Origin: Candidatus Agathobaculum intestinipullorum
GTDB taxonomy: Bacteria; Bacillota; Clostridia; Oscillospirales; Butyricicoccaceae
Assembly: GCA_019117485.1 (NCBI GenBank)
Contig: DWZQ01000021.1
Location: 23,604-87,603 of the forward strand
Length of the DNA: 64,000 bases
Reading direction: 5' to 3'
In this document: positions 27,434 to 41,372 of the stretch, piece by piece
Layout: each line of letters starts with the position of its first letter
Numbering within the stretch: the first letter of the stretch is position 1
Translations under genes and position numbers: made by a program
Notes under the pieces: generated by a model
Database searches by the model: none
What the model was told of the DNA's origin: nothing
The model's input: the letters and a program-made list of their open reading frames with translations, nothing else

Positions 27434-28465
27434 ATGTCTGAAGTTTTATCACAAAGCCAAATCGATGCCCTGCTTGCCGCCGCACGGAACGGTGACATGG
27501 ACATGGGGACGGCCGAGAAAGATAAATCCGAAGAAAAACGGTACCCCAAGTACGATTTCTATAGCCCGAAAAAATTTACGCGTGACCGTCTGAAGATGAT
27601 CAGCAGCGTATTTGAGAGCTATGTTCGGATATTATCCTCCCGGCTGAACGCCATGTTGCATATGTCCTGTGAGTTAGAAGTAGATTCGGTGGAGGAACAG
27701 AGGTATTTCGAATTTTCCAATGCGTTGTCAGAACGGGACGTTCTTACATTGGCAGAGGATTCATTCGATGATGCAGTGGAGAAAGAGCCGATCTTGTTCC
27801 ACGTGACAACCGGCATCATGCTGAGCATGATGGATCGGATGCTGGGCGGAGACGGCGACGTAGAGAGCGAAATTAATTCGGATTATCAGTATACGGATAT
27901 TGAATTGCGGCTGTATAAGGATTTTATGACCAGTATGGTCGATAGCCTGTCCAATGCATGGAAGAATTATATTGATATCAATTTTAAATACCAGAGGGTT
28001 GAGGTAAACCCAACTTTGGTGCAGCTCATCGGGCTGGAAGAAGCGGTCGTGATCGTAGGCATCACAATCCGGACACCGGTAAGCCGGGGGAGGTTCAGTA
28101 TCGTGCTCCCGGGGACGATGCTGAGCGACGTATTTGGTCTGATGAATCGGGAAACGGCCAGTGTCCGCCAGGCAAGCCAGCGCGATAGCGAAGAAATCAT
28201 GGATTTCCTGCGCGTATCCGACTTGGAAATCACAGCGGAATTTCAACATACAACCTTGCGGCTGGAAGATATCTATCATCTGCATGTCGGTGATGTGATC
28301 TTTCTGGATCAGCCAAAAGACTCCAATATTTTCTTGAACATTGGAGGAAAGCGCTGGTTCGATGGCAAATTGGGTGTATTTCAGAAAAACAAGGCGGTTC
28401 GGATAGATAAAACATATGTGCTGTCCGAAATGGAAAATACGCAGGATGAAGGAGAGAGGCAGTAA
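27434..28465 (+). CDS. fliM: flagellar motor switch protein FliM
   Basis: 343 residues. FliM is the middle protein of the C-ring. The N-terminal peptide VLSQSQIDALLAA is the docking site for CheY-P. A CheC-like middle domain (about 45-235) lacks the CheC catalytic Glu/Asn pairs, and the C-terminal SpoA domain (about 255-330) has 'LRLEDIYHLHVGDVIFLDQP'. ATG 27434 lies 28 bases past motB. It is immediately followed by fliY. Confidence 0.96.
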   Translation: MSEVLSQSQIDALLAAARNGDMDMGTAEKDKSEEKRYPKYDFYSPKKFTRDRLKMISSVFESYVRILSSRLNAMLHMSCELEVDSVEEQRYFEFSNALSERDVLTLAEDSFDDAVEKEPILFHVTTGIMLSMMDRMLGGDGDVESEINSDYQYTDIELRLYKDFMTSMVDSLSNAWKNYIDINFKYQRVEVNPTLVQLIGLEEAVVIVGITIRTPVSRGRFSIVLPGTMLSDVFGLMNRETASVRQASQRDSEEIMDFLRVSDLEITAEFQHTTLRLEDIYHLHVGDVIFLDQPKDSNIFLNIGGKRWFDGKLGVFQKNKAVRIDKTYVLSEMENTQDEGERQ

Positions 28466-28467
28466 GA

Positions 28468-29895
28468 ATGGGATCGAGTATATTTAGCCCAATGGCAATG
28501 GATGCGATTGGAGAAATCTTTAATATCAGTCTGGGTTCCTCTGCAACCGCAGTTTCCAACATGCTTGCGCGGCGCGTGGACATCACCACGCCAACGGTCA
28601 GCGTTGTTTCTGCCAAGGATTTCACGCTGGGGGACCTGCAGCCGGCTATTGGTGTTAAGATTGATTATGTGGCTGGCTTGAGCGGCAGCAATATTATGCT
28701 GCTCAAGCGGAGCGATGTCCGTGCAATCGTAGATATCCTGATGGGAACCACGACCAAGGACGAGGATTTCGAGATTAATGAGCTCAACATGAGCGCGATC
28801 TGCGAAGTTATGAACCAGATGATGGGCGCGGCTTCGACCGCGATGTCGGATTTCCTCAGCCGTATGGTCAATATCTCGACGCCGCAGGCGTTTGAGATCG
28901 CAAGCTTACAGGAATTTGTCGATGAGTATTTCCCAGCCAACGGTACTTTGGTCGTTGTCCGGTTCAAGTTTGGCATTGAAGACGCAGTAGAAAGCGAATT
29001 TATGAGTGCGCTGAGTACCGATCTGGCACGCGACCTGTTGCAAGGCTTCGGCATCGGCGGTGCAGATGTAGGCCTTGGGGATGACCAGCAGGAGGCAGCT
29101 CCGGCACCGGAGCCGGAATCGGCTAAGGATAGTGGCGCGGCCCTCAGCCAGGATGAGATCGAAAAGCTGATGGCGCAGAACTTTGCGTCTGAACAGGCTG
29201 CGGCACCCCAGCCGGTGATGACACCGGAGCCGGCCAAGGATAGCGGGGCGGCCCTTAGTCAGGAAGAGATCGAAAAACTGATGGCGCAAAACATGGCGGC
29301 TGAACAGCCGGCTTCGCCGCCGGTGCAGCAGCCTGCACCGCAGCCGGCAGCTACACAACCGGTACCAGCCGCGCAACCCGCCGTACCGCAACAGGCACCG
29401 CAGATGCAGCAGGGTATGCCGCCGATGCAAGGCATGCCGCCTATGACGCAAGACATGCAGCAGGCTTATGCCGGTATGCCGTATCCGCCGTATGGTATGC
29501 AGATGCCGTACCCGCCGATGTACTATATGCCGCCGCAGCAAGCACCGGCACCTGCGCCTGCGGAACCCAAGACAATTAAAACCAGCAAGCCGTCGATGCC
29601 CAAGTTTGAGGAAAGGGCAGCAAGCCTGAACGAAGAACAGGAGGGCAACCTCGACCTGTTGATGTCGGTGCCGGTGGATGTGGCAGTCGAGATCGGCCGT
29701 ACCCGCCGTCGCGTAAAGGATATCCTCAACTACACCAAGGGCTCGCTTGTCGTGCTTGACCGTCTGGCAGGAGACCGGGCGGATCTGTATGTAAATGGCA
29801 AGTGCATTGCCAAGGGTGATATCGTTGTCGTGGATGACAACTTCGGCCTGCGTATTGCGGAGATCGTAGAACCGCTTGCGTTGGAAGACCTTTAA
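28468..29895 (+). CDS. fliY: flagellar motor switch phosphatase FliY (CheC-like + FliN)
   Basis: 475 residues. FliY dephosphorylates CheY-P at the motor and replaces FliN in the C-ring. The CheC-like domain (1-200) has two intact active sites: Asp12/Glu16/Asn19 with Pro42, and Ser109/Glu113/Asn116 with Pro139. The C-terminal SpoA/FliN domain (about 390-475) contains 'LLMSVPVDVAVEIGRTRRRVKDILNYTKGSLVVLDRLAG'. The linker (about 205-385) is Pro/Gln/Ala/Met-rich and holds two copies of a LSQ[DE]EIEKLMAQN peptide resembling the FliM CheY-P-docking motif. The N-terminal docking peptide found in B. subtilis FliY is missing here. The start is two bases after fliM. Confidence 0.94.
   Translation: MGSSIFSPMAMDAIGEIFNISLGSSATAVSNMLARRVDITTPTVSVVSAKDFTLGDLQPAIGVKIDYVAGLSGSNIMLLKRSDVRAIVDILMGTTTKDEDFEINELNMSAICEVMNQMMGAASTAMSDFLSRMVNISTPQAFEIASLQEFVDEYFPANGTLVVVRFKFGIEDAVESEFMSALSTDLARDLLQGFGIGGADVGLGDDQQEAAPAPEPESAKDSGAALSQDEIEKLMAQNFASEQAAAPQPVMTPEPAKDSGAALSQEEIEKLMAQNMAAEQPASPPVQQPAPQPAATQPVPAAQPAVPQQAPQMQQGMPPMQGMPPMTQDMQQAYAGMPYPPYGMQMPYPPMYYMPPQQAPAPAPAEPKTIKTSKPSMPKFEERAASLNEEQEGNLDLLMSVPVDVAVEIGRTRRRVKDILNYTKGSLVVLDRLAGDRADLYVNGKCIAKGDIVVVDDNFGLRIAEIVEPLALEDL
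29122..29181 (+). repeat. FliY linker repeat, copy 1 (FliM-like docking peptide)
   Basis: Twenty codons encoding AKDSGAALSQDEIEKLMAQN. The core LSQDEIEKLM resembles FliM's LSQSQIDALL in this window. Copy 2 begins 111 bases after the start of copy 1. Confidence 0.85.
29233..29292 (+). repeat. FliY linker repeat, copy 2 (FliM-like docking peptide)
   Basis: Twenty codons encoding AKDSGAALSQEEIEKLMAQN, identical to copy 1 at 19 of 20 residues, with scattered silent base changes, so the repeat is kept at the protein level. Confidence 0.85.
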
Positions 29896-29950: not shown

Positions 29951-30316
29951 ATGGCTAAGATTTTATTGGTAGATGATGCGGCGTTTATGCGAATGATGGT
30001 CAAGAATACGCTGAACGAAAACGGCTACACCGATACTTACGAAGCGAGCGACGGTGCGGAAGCCGTGAACAAGTATGCGGAGTTGCAGCCGGACTTGGTC
30101 ATCATGGACATCACCATGCCGAATATGGATGGTCTGGAAGCACTCAAGGCGATCCGCAAGGCAGACCCGAATGCGTCGGTTGTTATGTGTTCTGCTATGG
30201 GTCAGGAAGCCATGGTTATTGAAGCGATCAAGTCGGGCGCAAAGGACTTTATCGTCAAGCCCTTCAAGCCGGACCGTATCATCAAGACCGTCAGCTCGAT
30301 TGTCGGCGCACCGTAA
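29951..30316 (+). CDS. cheY: chemotaxis response regulator CheY
   Basis: 121 residues, a single receiver domain. The acidic pair Asp8-Asp9 (LLVDDAAFMR), phosphoacceptor Asp53 (VIMDITMPNMDG), switch Ser in VVMCSAMG and Lys in FIVKPFKPD are all present. When phosphorylated by CheA it binds FliM and changes motor rotation. Its place right behind fliY, between the C-ring and export-gate genes, matches Bacillus. CheA itself is not encoded in the window. fliO starts three bases after its stop. Confidence 0.95.
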   Translation: MAKILLVDDAAFMRMMVKNTLNENGYTDTYEASDGAEAVNKYAELQPDLVIMDITMPNMDGLEALKAIRKADPNASVVMCSAMGQEAMVIEAIKSGAKDFIVKPFKPDRIIKTVSSIVGAP

Positions 30317-33581: not shown

Positions 33582-35657
33582 ATGAAACGACTTTTTGACA
33601 ACGTGATATCGGTTTTTGTCGTGGTCATCGTGTTGTTCCTACTGATCCCACTGCCGCCGTTCCTGCTGGACGTATTCTTTATCATCAACATCTCTCTGGC
33701 GCTGATCATTTTGTTGATCACCATGAATATCCATGAGCCGCTGGAGTTTTCGATTTTCCCATCCCTGTTGTTGATTACAACGCTGTTCCGCTTGGGTTTG
33801 AATGTATCGTCCACCCGTCTGATCCTCTCTGAGGGCGGACAGGCAGGTCAGGTCATTCAGGTGTTCGGTGAATTTGTTATTCAGGGCAACGTGGTCATTG
33901 GTGTTATCATCTTCCTGATCATCGTTTTGATGCAGTTCATCGTTATCACCAAGGGCGCCGAGCGCGTGGCCGAGGTTGCTGCCCGCTTTACGCTCGATTC
34001 GATGCCCGGCAAACAAATGGCGATCGACGCCGACCTGTCCTCTGGTCTGATAGATGAGCAGGAGGCTAAGCAGCGCCGCTATAAGATTCAGCGTGAAGCG
34101 GATTTCTACGGCGCCATGGACGGTGCTACCAAGATCGTCAAGGGCGACGCGATTATGTCGATCATTATCACGTCGATCAACTTTATCGCAGGTTCAATCA
34201 TTGGCATTGTGCAGTCGGGTATGGAGCTGAGTGAGGTGCTCAGCGTTTACTCGATTGCCACCATCGGTGACGGTCTGGTTTCCCAGCTACCGGCACTGAT
34301 GATTTCAACGGCAACGGGCATGATTGTTACCCGTGCGGTATCCGAGGACAGCCTGAACAAGGATGTTATCAAGCAGTTCTTGGCGCAGCCGCAGTCGTTG
34401 ATGATTGCCGCAGTGATTCTAGGTGTGTTTGCGATTCTGCCGGGCACCCCGCATATCCAGCTGATTTTGATTGCCGCGGCGCTGTTTTTCACCAGCCGTC
34501 GAGTTACAGCGAACATGCTGGCATTGCAGCGTGAAAAGGAAGCCCTGCCGGCCGCACAGGAGCAGGCCAAAAAGCAGGCCGAAGCGCAGCAGACCGAAAT
34601 GGAATACTACAAGGATGTTAACAACATCTATTCTCTGATTAACGTAGAGCCAATCGAAATGGAATTTGGTTACAGCCTGATTCCGTTGGTGGACGAGTCC
34701 CGTGGCGGCAAGCTGATCAGCCGTATCGTTATTTTCCGTCGACAGTATGCGCAGGAGATGGGCTTTGTCGTGCCTTCGATTCGTTTGCGCGACGCGTCTA
34801 TGCTGGGCACAAACCAGTATGTGATCAAGATCAAGGGCGAAGAGGTCGCGCGCGGCGAGATCCTGCTCGACTATTATTTGGCGCTTGAACCAGCCAATCC
34901 CGCTGGAGAGATCGAAGGTATTGAGACGATCGAACCGGCATACGGTATCCCGTCCCGTTGGATTCTGCCGGAGAACAAGGAAATGGCGGAAATCTATGGT
35001 TATACTGTCATCGACCCGCTTTCGGTTATGCTCACGCACCTGTCCGAAACGGTGAAAAAGCATACCTATGAATTGCTCAACCGTGCGGAGACCATCCAAC
35101 TGGTCGAAAACCTCAAGCGCACTGCACCGCAGCTGGTAGAGGAAGCATTCCCCAATGTGGTGTCGTATGCCATGCTGGAGAAAATCCTGTGTAACCTGCT
35201 CAAAGAGGGCATTCCGATCAAGGATATGGGCACGATCGTCGAAACCACGGTGGATGCGCTGGCGATCACGCGTGACGTTGATCTGATTACGGAAAGCGTG
35301 CGTGCGCAGCTGAAGCGCACGATCACACACCGCTTCTGCGAGGACGGCCGCCTGAGCGTGATTACGCTGGACGCCGAGGTAGAGAAGAAGATCGTTGCAA
35401 GCCTGACCAAGAACGACCAAGGCGTGTATCTGGCGCTGGGGCCTGAACTGATGCAGCGTCTGTTGGGTCAGCTTAACGAACATCTGAAGAAATTTTCCGA
35501 GCTGTCGCAAAAGCCAATTTTGCTGACCAGCCATATCATCCGTATTTATCTCAGCCGGTTGCTGGATCAATTCTATCCGGAACTGATCGTACTTTCGTTT
35601 AACGAGGTGATCACAAGCGTACAGATCCAGGCGCTGGGCAATATCACACTGTCGTAA
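33582..35657 (+). CDS. flhA: flagellar export-gate protein FlhA
   Basis: 691 residues, the normal length. Seven to eight membrane helices (1-320) contain the FHIPEP-family stretch 'FRLGLNVSSTRLILSEGGQAGQVIQVFGEFVIQGN' and 'RVAEVAARFTLDSMPGKQMAIDADLSSGLIDEQEAKQRR', which is also the proton-interaction loop. The C-terminal domain forms the nonameric docking ring for export substrates and chaperones. In Bacillus and many Clostridia flhF and flhG follow flhA; here the sigma factor gene comes next, 23 bases later. Confidence 0.96.
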   Translation: MKRLFDNVISVFVVVIVLFLLIPLPPFLLDVFFIINISLALIILLITMNIHEPLEFSIFPSLLLITTLFRLGLNVSSTRLILSEGGQAGQVIQVFGEFVIQGNVVIGVIIFLIIVLMQFIVITKGAERVAEVAARFTLDSMPGKQMAIDADLSSGLIDEQEAKQRRYKIQREADFYGAMDGATKIVKGDAIMSIIITSINFIAGSIIGIVQSGMELSEVLSVYSIATIGDGLVSQLPALMISTATGMIVTRAVSEDSLNKDVIKQFLAQPQSLMIAAVILGVFAILPGTPHIQLILIAAALFFTSRRVTANMLALQREKEALPAAQEQAKKQAEAQQTEMEYYKDVNNIYSLINVEPIEMEFGYSLIPLVDESRGGKLISRIVIFRRQYAQEMGFVVPSIRLRDASMLGTNQYVIKIKGEEVARGEILLDYYLALEPANPAGEIEGIETIEPAYGIPSRWILPENKEMAEIYGYTVIDPLSVMLTHLSETVKKHTYELLNRAETIQLVENLKRTAPQLVEEAFPNVVSYAMLEKILCNLLKEGIPIKDMGTIVETTVDALAITRDVDLITESVRAQLKRTITHRFCEDGRLSVITLDAEVEKKIVASLTKNDQGVYLALGPELMQRLLGQLNEHLKKFSELSQKPILLTSHIIRIYLSRLLDQFYPELIVLSFNEVITSVQIQALGNITLS

Positions 35658-35680
35658 GGCTTATATGAGGGGGGAACGCC

Positions 35681-36463
35681 TTGGCATCGCAAAAAGAATG
35701 GGAGGAGATGCCCAATGAGGCGCTCCTCGAAGAATACAAACAGACAGGCGATCCGGAACTGAAAAAAGTGCTGGTGATGCGCTATGTCTATCTTGTAAAA
35801 AATATTGCGTTAAAATTACGCGGAGTTTATTTGAGTTTTGCGCAAGTTGATGATATGATAAATGAGGGCATCATCCTGCTTATGGGCGCGCTGGATAAAT
35901 TTGACCTGAGCCAGAACGTCAAGTTTGAGACCTTTGTCTCCAAACGGCTGCGCGGCATGATCATTGATCTGGCACGCAGACAGGATTGGCTGCCGCGTTC
36001 GGTACGCAAGCGCATGCGCGAGATTGATACAGCGACCAACGAGTTATTTACCAAGTTGGGCCGCTCGCCAACCGATAAGGAAATCGCGGCCAGTTTGGGG
36101 CTGACGGAAACGCGTTATCAGGAAGAGCTGGCGAAAACGGCGCTGTGTAATGTGATGTCGCTCGATATGCTGCTGGATGAACGGGATTCCGACCTGCCGG
36201 CGAAGCATTTGCCGCAAACCGATGCCGATGCCCAGCCGGAGGAACATTTCCAGAAGAAAGAAATGTATGAGGTGCTGAAAACCAGCATCAGCGAGCTGCG
36301 TGAAAACGAGCAGTTGGTGTTGTCATTATATTATCAGAAAGCCTACCAGATGAAGGAGATCGCGCAGGTGCTCGGCGTGAGTGAGCCGCGGGTTTCGCAG
36401 ATTCATTCCAATGCCATCCGCAAGCTGCGGATCTCCATGCAGAAATACATTTGTGGTACATAA
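35681..36463 (+). CDS. fliA: flagellar sigma factor (FliA/SigD, WhiG family)
   Basis: 260 residues, start TTG 35681 after GAGGGGGGAA. This alternative sigma-70 factor transcribes late flagellar and chemotaxis genes. Region 2 ('YVYLVKNIALKLRGVYLSFAQVDDMINEGIILLMGALDKFDLSQNVKFETFVSKRLRGMIIDLARRQDWLPRSVRK'), region 3 ('LGRSPTDKEIAASLGLTETRYQ') and region 4 ('QLVLSLYYQKAYQMKEIAQVLGVSEPRVSQIHSNAIRKLR') are all clear. The Asp-Trp-Leu-Pro-Arg-Ser stretch is typical of FliA/SigD. No anti-sigma flgM gene lies in the window. Confidence 0.95.
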   Translation: MASQKEWEEMPNEALLEEYKQTGDPELKKVLVMRYVYLVKNIALKLRGVYLSFAQVDDMINEGIILLMGALDKFDLSQNVKFETFVSKRLRGMIIDLARRQDWLPRSVRKRMREIDTATNELFTKLGRSPTDKEIAASLGLTETRYQEELAKTALCNVMSLDMLLDERDSDLPAKHLPQTDADAQPEEHFQKKEMYEVLKTSISELRENEQLVLSLYYQKAYQMKEIAQVLGVSEPRVSQIHSNAIRKLRISMQKYICGT

Positions 36464-37995: not shown

Positions 37996-38619
37996 TTGGA
38001 TTTGCGAAAATATGAGGACATGAACTCCTTACAGATCGACGCACTGCGTGAAATTGGCAGTATCGGCACGGGCAACGCGGCTACCGCGCTGTCCAGCATG
38101 CTGGGCATGGAAGTGCGTATTCCGCTGCCTGAGGTGCAGATTCTGGAGTTTAATGCAGCGGTGGAAAAGCTGGGCGGCTTTGAAACGATTTCCGCAGGTA
38201 TTATTTCTGATCTGCGCGGCGAGATCAACGGTCTGATGCTGGCGTTGTTCCAGCTTGATGCGATCAATCTGCTACTGGGCAAGATGATGGGCAAAAAGAT
38301 CAACGATTACGATGAATTGACCGAGATCGAAAATTCGGCAATTATTGAAATTGGCAATATCCTGATTTCTTCGTTCATCAATGCGCTTTCCGGTTTGTCC
38401 GGCGTGCGGATCACGCCGTCTGTGCCGCAGATCTCCATTGATATGCAGGGTGCGATCATTACGGTGCCGATGGCGGCTTATGGTAGCCAGTCGGATTATA
38501 TCATGCTGATCGGCGGCAGCTTCTTGGTGGAGCACAAGGAAGTGCCGTGCAGGCTATTGCTTGCGCCGGATATGCGATCCCTGAATTATCTGTTACACAG
38601 ATTGGGGATATTGGAATGA
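37996..38619 (+). CDS. cheC: chemotaxis protein CheC (CheY-P phosphatase)
   Basis: 207 residues, start TTG 37996. CheC removes phosphate from CheY-P and binds CheD to modulate adaptation. The family motif is [DS]xxxExxN with a Pro 23 residues on. The first site is Asp15, Glu19, then Ser22 instead of Asn, with Pro45; the second is intact: Ser114, Glu118, Asn121, Pro144. So one of the two catalytic sites looks degenerate. Its end overlaps the cheD start (ATGA), so CheC and CheD are made together. Confidence 0.93.
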   Translation: MDLRKYEDMNSLQIDALREIGSIGTGNAATALSSMLGMEVRIPLPEVQILEFNAAVEKLGGFETISAGIISDLRGEINGLMLALFQLDAINLLLGKMMGKKINDYDELTEIENSAIIEIGNILISSFINALSGLSGVRITPSVPQISIDMQGAIITVPMAAYGSQSDYIMLIGGSFLVEHKEVPCRLLLAPDMRSLNYLLHRLGILE

Positions 38620-39095
38620 ACAAACTGACGATTGGCATTGCAGATATGAAAATGGCAAAAGGGGAAGGGGTACTGATTACCTATGCATTGGGCTCCTGCA
38701 TCGGTGTTTGCCTGTATGATCCCTTCATCCGTTTGGGTGCTTTGGTTCATATCATGCTGCCGCTTAACATGGAGACGAACCGGACGTCGCCGCTGAAATA
38801 TGCAGATACCGGCATCCGGCTGACTTTAAGCAAAATGGAGCAGATGGGCGCAAAGCGCGCACGCATTGTCGCAAAGATTGCGGGCGGTGCGAAAATGTTT
38901 GATGTAGCAGGGAACGGCAGCCTGGGCAACATCGGCCAGCGCAATATCGAAAGCGTGCATCATGTGCTGCAGCAGGAACGTATTCGCCTGCTGAAGGAGG
39001 ACGTGGGCGGCTCTACCGCGCGTACATTGCTGTTCGACGTCGCCACTGGAGAAGGCTGCATTAAGATATATGGCAAAGCGGAACGCTTTTTGTGA
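38616..39095 (+). CDS. cheD: chemoreceptor glutamine deamidase CheD
   Basis: 159 residues from ATG 38616; the longer start in the ORF track lies inside cheC. CheD deamidates receptor glutamines and, in the Bacillus scheme, boosts CheC activity when bound to it. The catalytic Cys is in 'LGSCIGVCLYDP', with His in 'LVHIMLP' and Thr in the 'KYADTGIRLT' stretch; the 'AKIAGGAKMF' and 'NIGQRNIESV' motifs are also standard. Translationally coupled to cheC. Confidence 0.94.
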   Translation: MNKLTIGIADMKMAKGEGVLITYALGSCIGVCLYDPFIRLGALVHIMLPLNMETNRTSPLKYADTGIRLTLSKMEQMGAKRARIVAKIAGGAKMFDVAGNGSLGNIGQRNIESVHHVLQQERIRLLKEDVGGSTARTLLFDVATGEGCIKIYGKAERFL

Positions 39096-39121
39096 TAGCG
39101 AGTGAAGAAGGAGTGAATATC

Positions 39122-40057
39122 ATGCAAGATAACGAACGCGGAAAGATCTTGCTCGAATCGGGTACCAATGAGATCGAGATCATGCAGTTTACCATCGACG
39201 ATAACCTGTATGGCATCAATGTGGCAAAGGTCAGAGAAATTATGATGAGCGCGCCGGTAAAGTCGATGCCGCACGCGCACCCGGCTGTCGAGGGTATTTT
39301 CAAGCCGCGCGACACGGTGCTGACCGTGGTCGACCTGCCGTTCTATCTGACGGGTAAGAAGTCCGAGCCGGATCCGAAGCAGCTGTTTATCGTCACGAAT
39401 TTTAACAAGATGTACATAGCCTTCCGTGTACACACGGTAGTCGGCATCAGCCGTATCTCGTGGACAGCTATCCAGAAGCCGGATAAGACGATTTCCGGCG
39501 GGGAAGAAGGTGTGGCAACCGGCATCGCGCAGTGCGACGACCAGCTTGTTACCGTGCTGGATTTTGAGAAGATCGTCGCGGAGATCGCGCCGGAGACTAC
39601 CATCCAGATGCGGGAAATTGAAAAGATGGGCAACCGTATCAGCCACGACTGCCCTGTTCTGGTTGCTGAGGACTCCATCCTGCTTTCTCGTATGATTCAG
39701 GAAGCCTTGCAAAAAGCAGGCTTTACCAACCTGACGATGTTTGCGAACGGGCAGGAGCTGTGGGATTACCTCCATCCGCTGGCCAGCTATCCCGAAGTGC
39801 TGCCGCAGAAGGCGGCTATGGTCATCACGGATATCGAGATGCCAAGCATGGATGGGCATCGTTTGACCAAGCTGATCAAGTCCGATAAGGTACTTAAGAA
39901 AATTCCGGTTATTATCTTCTCTTCGTTGGTTACGGAGGAAATGCGCATCAAGGGTAAGCAGCTTGGTGCCGATGAACAGCTGTCCAAACCGGAGATTGGC
40001 CATCTGGTAGATGTGATGGATGGCCTGCTGGCACGTCAGGGAAACGGAGCGAACTAA
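39122..40057 (+). CDS. cheV: chemotaxis coupling protein CheV (CheW + receiver)
   Basis: 311 residues from ATG 39122, eight bases after AAGGAG. The CheW-like domain (about 15-160) contains 'LYGINVAKVREIMMSAPVKSMPHAHPAVEGIFKPRDTVLTVVDL'. The receiver domain (about 175-305) has 'VLVAEDSILLSRMI', phosphoacceptor Asp in 'VITDIEMPSMDGHRL' and Lys in 'QLSKPEIG'. CheV joins receptors to CheA and is itself phosphorylated for adaptation. It is the only CheW-type coupler in this window. The poly-G tract begins four bases after its stop. Confidence 0.95.
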   Translation: MQDNERGKILLESGTNEIEIMQFTIDDNLYGINVAKVREIMMSAPVKSMPHAHPAVEGIFKPRDTVLTVVDLPFYLTGKKSEPDPKQLFIVTNFNKMYIAFRVHTVVGISRISWTAIQKPDKTISGGEEGVATGIAQCDDQLVTVLDFEKIVAEIAPETTIQMREIEKMGNRISHDCPVLVAEDSILLSRMIQEALQKAGFTNLTMFANGQELWDYLHPLASYPEVLPQKAAMVITDIEMPSMDGHRLTKLIKSDKVLKKIPVIIFSSLVTEEMRIKGKQLGADEQLSKPEIGHLVDVMDGLLARQGNGAN

Positions 40058-40061
40058 ACAC

Positions 40062-40071
40062 GGGGGGGGGG
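40062..40071 (+). repeat. G10 homopolymer in the ribosome-binding region of the HDOD gene
   Basis: Ten consecutive G lie between the cheV stop and ATG 40080, where the ribosome site is expected; there is no AGGAGG alternative. Such tracts are slippage-prone in replication and also error-prone in sequencing. Confidence 0.8.
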
Positions 40072-40079
40072 CGGCAATC

Positions 40080-41372
40080 ATGGAAAGAAGTAGATATATC
40101 GTAAGACAGGCAATCAAGGATGCGGATAACCATATCCTTGGTTACGAGATCAAATATTCCGGCAGTGAAGCCTATGGTGGAGAGAGCGGCAACGATGTTT
40201 CGGCAGCAGAAACAATCTATAATTTTCTGATGCAGAATTCGGAAAAGGCGCTCCGTGATTCCAGAACGTTTATGACGTTTACCAGCTCCCTGTTAGCGAA
40301 AAGAACGCCGCATTTGTTTAAAAATAAGGATCTGGTTATCCAGATCGATGACAGCGTTATCATCCATCCGTTTGCGATGCATCTGGTGCAGCAGTATGTC
40401 AAGGAAGGTTATGAGATCGCGGCCAATGATTTTCAGTTTATGCCGCGCTATCTGGCGCTGATGGAGTACTTATCCTATATCAAAATTGATTTGTCGCAGA
40501 TGAGTGCCAGTGCAGCGGAGAACATTATGCGTGTGGCGCATAGCATGCATAAAAAGGTGATTGCAACCGGCGTAGATTCTCAGCAGCAGCGCGATGTCGC
40601 AATCAGCCTGGGCGTGCATGGCATGCAGGGGCAGTATATTGCCGGCCAGCTGGCGAACAAGGTGCATCAGAGTAGCTACTTGCGTAGCAATTTCTTCCGC
40701 CTTGTGGTTGCAGTAACGCGTGAGGAACCCGATATCCACGAGATCGAGCAGATTGTTTCGACGGATGTTACGCTGTCGTACAGCTTGCTCAAGATTGCAA
40801 ACTCCGCGTACTTTGCGCGGCGGACGCAGACAACGTCCATCCAGCAGGCAATTGTTACGCTGGGTTTAAGCCAACTTAAGCGCTGGGTATACCTGCTCAG
40901 TGCGGGCGATACCGATGATTCGCATCTGCAGGATTCGGAAGAGTTCATCAAGATTTCTTTCATGCGTGCAAGCTTTGCAAGCGAGCTGCAGAAGTATGTT
41001 AAGCACCCAGTGTTGACTCGTTCCGAGGCATACCTGCTTGGCATGTTCTCCACGCTTGAATATCTGATCGATGCACCGATGGCGGAGATCATTGCGGATA
41101 TCCCGATGGTGGACGAATTGAAGAATGCGTTGCTCAACCGTGAGGGGTCGGGCGGCATGCTGCTTGAACTTGTCATCAGCTATGAAAAGGCCGACTGGAA
41201 GAAGATCACGGAAAATGCGGAAGCGCTGGGTATTCCTTCGGCGCAGTTGTCGACGATCTACTTCAATTGCATGGAAGAAGTTAACCGGATTTGGGAACAG
41301 ATGCTCAACCCGTCGCCAGTCGCATCAAAGGAAGAACTGGTAGACATGGCAATGCATAACGACCCACAGTAA
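40080..41372 (+). CDS. EAL-like plus HDOD domain signalling protein (YuxH-like)
   Basis: 430 residues from ATG 40080. The N-terminal half (about 5-195) has an EAL-type fold: 'RQAIKDADNHILGYEIKYSG' replaces the E-A-L motif, and 'YIKIDLSQM' and 'VIATGVDSQQQRDVAISLGVHGMQGQYI' keep only part of the catalytic set, so cyclic-di-GMP hydrolysis is doubtful. The C-terminal HDOD domain (about 200-400, 'QIVSTDVTLSYSLLKIANSAYFARRTQTTSIQQAIVTLGLSQLKRWVYLLS') is a non-enzymatic HD relative. This EAL-HDOD layout is widespread (YuxH family) and linked to motility/signalling, with unsettled function. It lies directly after cheV. Confidence 0.88.
   Translation: MERSRYIVRQAIKDADNHILGYEIKYSGSEAYGGESGNDVSAAETIYNFLMQNSEKALRDSRTFMTFTSSLLAKRTPHLFKNKDLVIQIDDSVIIHPFAMHLVQQYVKEGYEIAANDFQFMPRYLALMEYLSYIKIDLSQMSASAAENIMRVAHSMHKKVIATGVDSQQQRDVAISLGVHGMQGQYIAGQLANKVHQSSYLRSNFFRLVVAVTREEPDIHEIEQIVSTDVTLSYSLLKIANSAYFARRTQTTSIQQAIVTLGLSQLKRWVYLLSAGDTDDSHLQDSEEFIKISFMRASFASELQKYVKHPVLTRSEAYLLGMFSTLEYLIDAPMAEIIADIPMVDELKNALLNREGSGGMLLELVISYEKADWKKITENAEALGIPSAQLSTIYFNCMEEVNRIWEQMLNPSPVASKEELVDMAMHNDPQ

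Follow-up and report, generated by a model that had tools for sequence, protein, structure and literature searches.

The fliY gene of this locus raises the question of what two near-identical peptides, each resembling the N-terminus of FliM, are doing in the linker of a flagellar motor switch phosphatase, and what they bind. An earlier note on this DNA had described tandem 20-residue copies, differing at a single residue and offset by 37, and had taken them for docking sites of phosphorylated CheY (CheY-P); both its coordinates and its wording proved correct for the window, by which we mean the whole 64,000-nucleotide stretch analysed here (Table 1). Sequence comparison and structure prediction lead us to regard it as probable that the linker peptides are CheY-P docking motifs placed beside an intact two-site phosphatase domain. 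The source genome, of a member of Clostridia that its relatives place in Butyricicoccaceae, measures 2.09 Mb; its closest named relative is an uncultured Agathobaculum, with a FliY identity of 92%.

Table 1. Positions in the window of fliY, its parts and the genes on either side.
Feature	Position	Strand	Basis and remarks
fliM	27434..28465	+	TIGR01397 200.7 bits, PF02154
FliM N-terminal CheY-P docking motif LSQSQIDALL	27446-27475	+	motif
fliY, flagellar motor switch phosphatase	28468..29895	+	ORF, 475 aa; between fliM and cheY
CheC-like phosphatase domain, aa 5-195	28480..29052	+	PF04509 in two stretches; pLDDT mostly >90; no preceding peptide
Phosphatase active site 1, D12-x3-E16-x2-N19-x22-P42	28501..28593	+	signature search
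Phosphatase active site 2, S109-x3-E113-x2-N116-x22-P139	28792..28884	+	signature search
P/A/Q/M-rich disordered linker, aa 201-386	29068..29625	+	composition; pLDDT mostly <60
Linker peptide copy 1, AKDSGAALSQDEIEKLMAQN, aa 219-238	29122..29181	+	core LSQDEIEKLM at 29143-29172; predicted helix aa 228-237
Linker peptide copy 2, AKDSGAALSQEEIEKLMAQN, aa 256-275	29233..29292	+	core LSQEEIEKLM at 29254-29283; predicted helix aa 265-274
FliN/SPOA C-ring domain, aa 394-468	29647..29871	+	TIGR02480 91 bits
cheY, presumed ligand of the linker peptides	29951..30316	+	PF00072

The protein has the hallmarks of the FliY class: a CheC-like domain and a FliN/SPOA domain on a single chain, encoded by a gene that adjoins fliM and cheY. 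In profile searches it matches NCBIfam NF005995 at 296 bits (cut-off 218) and both Pfam CheC and FliMN_C, and its AlphaFold model, run with 50 relatives, matches Thermotoga maritima FliY (4hyn) in the phosphatase fold. Both CheC-type signatures, [DS]x3Ex2Nx22P, were found intact here and in 80 of 80 relatives; E16, N19 and P42 of the first site are invariant in FliY alignment A2, as are S109, E113, N116 and P139 of the second in the FliY alignment. As the earlier note had stated, the N-terminus leads straight into the CheC domain, so that the motif ahead of this domain that marks the Bacillus subtilis type is lacking; the idea that a wrong start codon had hidden such a peptide was rejected, because upstream of the start the ORF runs for just six codons until a stop. 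Degenerate M/P/Q/Y-rich repeats (MQGMPPM, PYPPYGMQMPYPPMYYMP; 29401-29534), conserved in close relatives but not clade-wide, also occur in the linker's second half. Downstream, at 37996-40057, come a separate CheC, a CheV-like CheW-REC protein and a CheD, the listed ORF of which overlaps the CheC end, so the cell has more CheY-P sinks than FliY; an EAL-HDOD domain protein follows these chemotaxis genes immediately (40020-41372).

The two copies, which start 37 residues (111 bp) apart, share AKDSGAALSQ[D/E]EIEKLMAQN and differ only in the D/E residue. Twelve of their 20 codons are the same in both copies, 7 show silent differences and 1 carries the residue change, and the DNA repeat around them reaches 89 nt at 83% identity. 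Their likeness to the N-terminus of FliM (MSEVLSQSQIDALL, from the gene start at 27434), also claimed by the note, stands out genome-wide: a DNA pattern for LSQxxI[D/E]xL, run over both strands, has exactly three matches, one in FliM and one in each FliY copy, and none is found for the reversed control pattern in the same whole-genome scan. Both copies are of the EIDAL class in sequence (LSQxEI(D)xLL-like, with the invariant I and an acid at position 12), the acid being E, not D.

In the AlphaFold model the CheC domain is modelled with confidence, the FliN domain weakly and the linker as disordered, and within the linker proper exactly two helices of at least 4 residues are predicted, one on each copy; an additional helix at aa 389-398 is part of the start of the FliN domain. 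In a relative with four copies, helices are predicted on 3 of the 4. A helical propensity within a disordered segment is thus predicted for the linker peptides, with helices modelled at moderate confidence only (pLDDT about 50-70); searched against solved structures, in chains of at least 20 residues, the linker peptide has no match. Predicted helices between two ring-forming domains, in a copy number that varies with linker length, might be read as structural or assembly elements: amphipathic helices that bind within the C-ring (to CheC, to FliM/FliN domains or to FliH) and space the FliY subunits. We consider this decidedly unlikely, as the model, with its moderate-confidence helices, gives no sign of docking on either domain, and as 0-4 copies in close relatives, together with outright losses, ill fit an essential element.

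Another key observation concerns the constancy of the core. The 153 copies in the 80 relatives conform to [LM]SQEEIE[KR][LM][LM], in which Q, I and E12 are invariant (100%) and S reaches 99%. We measured selection on 103 pairs of copies, both members of each pair lying within one protein, and took ten codons as the core. Silent divergence is alike in core and flanks (pS 0.52-0.58; 0.535 in the core), whereas pN rises from 0.041 in the core to 0.28-0.31 in the flanks, which gives pN/pS values of 0.077 for the core and of 0.535 and 0.532 for the flanks. These values point clearly to strong purifying selection on the core of each copy, and they bear out, over many proteins, what the note had read from the mostly silent differences of a single gene. 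Chance resemblance to the docking motif is ruled out by the genome pattern scan, the relatives' consensus and pN/pS taken together.

Copies within one protein are more alike than copies between species (core 0.93 vs 0.77, flanks 0.63 vs 0.32), which suggests that duplication or homogenisation has recurred. A comparison of the window with L122, its nearest relative, covers few sites and shows paralogous copies to be about as far apart as orthologous ones, at 15-22 differences per 90 nt. The same within-protein similarity is what duplication turnover would give if this were neutral repeat expansion in a low-complexity linker, the extra copies being functionless, and some relatives do lack any copy. 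Such an origin is nevertheless very improbable: the core has changed so little in residue despite frequent silent differences, and two or more copies are retained in 57 of the 80 relatives. The contrast between core and flanks instead indicates that the extra copies are kept by selection.

How widespread is this arrangement? When FliY of related Clostridia was aligned for copy number and placement, as the note had proposed, the N-terminal motif was found in 0 of 80 named relatives, and the linker held one copy in 21, two in 39, three in 14, four in 4 and none in 2 (L126 and L128), variants included. The strict pattern gives 0 in 4, 1 in 20, 2 in 39, 3 in 13 and 4 in 4; the two additional zeros have variant copies, MSQEEMDALM three times in L194 and MSQEEIMELM once in L197. 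Linker length and copy number vary together. The start of the first copy is 22-74 residues (median 32) past the CheC domain and the last copy lies a median 110 residues ahead of the FliN domain; the peptides sit on the tether of the phosphatase domain, nearer to it than to the FliN domain. In a class-wide sample, 54 loci of other Clostridia have a single LSQEEIDALL-like motif ahead of the CheC domain and an empty linker, the form that the note had given for B. subtilis, and none of the sampled sequences has both an N-terminal and a linker motif. The array is real, but it is not peculiar to this FliY, being a clade-wide series of 0-4 copies.

On a FliY tree built from the two domains with the linker excluded, one clade of 89 rows (SH-aLRT 99) holds all 81 linker-motif rows, apart from the N-terminal type; the tree is midpoint-rooted, and long branches lead to several of its basal rows. 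The linker label needs a minimum of six changes on this tree, which fits one gain and a few losses (the Butyricicoccus group, L126, L005). The clade, a sizeable group of gut clostridia, covers Oscillospiraceae, Butyricicoccaceae, Acutalibacteraceae and part of Lachnospiraceae, and its named carriers include Flavonifractor plautii, Agathobaculum desmolans, Oscillibacter valericigenes and Lacrimispora species. Clostridium sp. 12(A) falls in it, whereas other members of its family (f30) have the N-terminal type, so a transfer of flagellar genes is likely. One assembly (G028) has two near-identical FliY genes on separate contigs (L012 and L031), one with two intact copies and the other with a degraded first copy (SGQEEIEKLM); this pair reflects either a strain mixture or a recent copy loss. 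The linker trait is thus real, selected and clade-wide, and apparently undescribed: we found no description of a linker-type FliY in the open-access literature, subscription literature lying outside that search.

The flhF and flhG genes usually lie between flhA and fliA in Bacillota. Here fliA (sigma factor) comes immediately after flhA, and flgF/flgG-like genes come next (33582-36463 of the window), with no flhF-flhG, and FlhF was not found elsewhere in the source genome. Across the sample, FlhF scores above cut-off in 25 of 27 N-terminal-type genomes and in 0 of 40 linker-type genomes (43 entries less 3 that list a genome a second time), an association that is not statistically independent, as it largely contrasts one clade with another. 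Of 18 N-terminal-type genomes tested, 17 give FlhG-class matches of 206-290 bits (the query's own genome apart); linker-type genomes give none, their best match, 92 bits, being at the level of MinD/ParA. These contents bear on whether the linker copies could be docking sites for FlhG, given that in Bacillus/Geobacillus FlhG binding requires the first 36 residues of FliY, which also suffice for it (PMC12327844). A FlhG-binding FliY would be expected in a genome that encodes FlhF/FlhG; this one does not, and FlhG, being absent from linker-type genomes, cannot explain the linker copies. We reject FlhG docking on gene content and give it almost no credence. Six genomes with neither motif nor FlhF (L004, L009, L077, L078, L079 and L081) lie close to the base of the linker clade, which suggests that FlhF and the N-terminal motif were lost before the linker copies arose.

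The known C-ring ligands of such a peptide are CheY-P and FlhG, and with FlhG gone from linker-type genomes CheY-P is the most likely ligand. CheY binds the EIDAL motif of FliM (PMC6946799, PMC9126983), FliM residues 8-15 being helical on CheY and Asp12 forming a salt bridge (PMC7012829); the FliY linker motif retains an acid, E, at the Asp12 position. In Caulobacter, mutation of the I-D pair in the motif abolishes binding of CheY-like proteins (PMC5677366). We hypothesize that FliM/FliY-type docking motifs for CheY-P moved from the N-terminus of FliY to the linker behind the CheC domain and then multiplied. Each peptide would fold into a short helix upon meeting CheY-P, which, docked 22-74 residues (median 32) from the phosphatase domain, would be held beside the two active sites; the signal would then be hydrolysed, or buffered, at the C-ring, its place of action. 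The N-terminal placement was probably lost with FlhF/FlhG, seeing that FlhG uses the first residues of FliY in Bacillus/Geobacillus.

We infer that the linker peptides would bind CheY-P, that this would affect hydrolysis and that more copies would mean more capture. In a worm-like-chain estimate, tethers of 22-110 residues yield some millimolar of effective concentration over 3 nm, so that exact placement would matter little and copy number would mainly multiply the sites. A gain in local CheY-P concentration is thus plausible, to an order of magnitude. It is a tentative possibility that a dual-use N-terminal peptide was abandoned on the loss of FlhF/FlhG and replaced by an evolvable array of 1-4 CheY-P-capture sites, the repeat number of which would set the signal-erasing capacity of the C-ring.

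Several points do not fit CheY-P docking. In linker-type genomes, FliM always or nearly always has SQID (SQIDA) and the FliY linker copies always or nearly always have EEIE, mostly followed by K or R; given this split, the two kinds of peptide would not be interchangeable and may differ in ligand. Position 92 of CheY, a known FliM contact (PMC8225110), is E in the linker clade and Q in the N-terminal type, and FliM Q10 accompanies CheY E92 in 100 loci and FliM E10 accompanies CheY Q92 in 22, with no exception among the 122. (In the window, FliM codon 9, at 27458-27460, corresponds to E. coli FliM position 10, and CheY E86 to E. coli position 92.) The two Clostridia clades may differ by a compensatory charge swap where FliM and CheY meet. 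The FliY linker copies keep E10 and do not follow the swap, so the linker peptide may bind CheY differently or bind another thing. The FliM-binding face shows no enrichment in clade-fixed CheY differences (rank test, p=0.84), nearly fixed sites on that face give Fisher p=0.04, and coevolution of the CheY face, not significant overall, was set aside as proof of the ligand. The nearest solved sequences to the window CheY are those of T. maritima CheY, including 4iga.

These discrepancies leave room for a motif of the same ancestral docking type that now serves another partner, such as CheV, a CheY paralogue or an assembly factor replacing FlhG. The clade with the trait is the clade that lost FlhF/FlhG, which makes it conceivable that a new partner took over, and a CheW-REC protein resembling CheV is encoded at 39092. 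We nonetheless judge another partner rather unlikely: no candidate was found to track the motif, in a search that was not systematic, and the hydrophobic I/L positions and the position-12 acid match the known CheY-binding peptide. On the side of CheY-P docking, the note had named as adverse the case of relatives that lack the motif with chemotaxis unchanged, and this case is found in part: some relatives without a linker motif still have FliM, CheY and CheA (CheA is retained in motif-less G007, G043, G044, G047, G049 and G052), which makes the motif dispensable for keeping chemotaxis. T. maritima FliY, according to a review (PMC7355467), shows no preference for activated CheY.

The clade is useful in its own right, as the CheY-P and FlhG roles of the N-terminal peptide of FliY are hard to separate in Bacillus. 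The linker clade separates both roles naturally, FlhF/FlhG and the N-terminal peptide being absent and the linker peptides being under selection, and the 0-4 copies among close relatives form a natural series on docking-site number versus CheY-P turnover at the motor.

Known systems share most of the parts. FliY of the B. subtilis type (NF005995) likewise combines a CheC-like domain with two active sites, a FliN domain and a FliM-like peptide, but it has one LSQEEIDALL peptide at the N-terminus, which also serves FlhG, whereas the linker type has no N-terminal peptide and repeats EEIE[KR] 1-4 times in the linker. The FliM docking peptide (structures 1F4V and 4IGA) shares with the linker copies the helix pattern L-S-Q-x-x-I-acid-x-hydrophobic-hydrophobic; in the linker clade it is N-terminal, single and SQIDALL, in contrast to EEIE[KR][LM][LM] in FliY. 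T. maritima FliY (4hyn) and CheC (1xkr) have the same phosphatase domain fold as the window FliY, and as structures of the CheC domain only they are uninformative on linker peptides. Both the peptide class and the protein are known; what is new here is the placement of the peptide and its multiplication.
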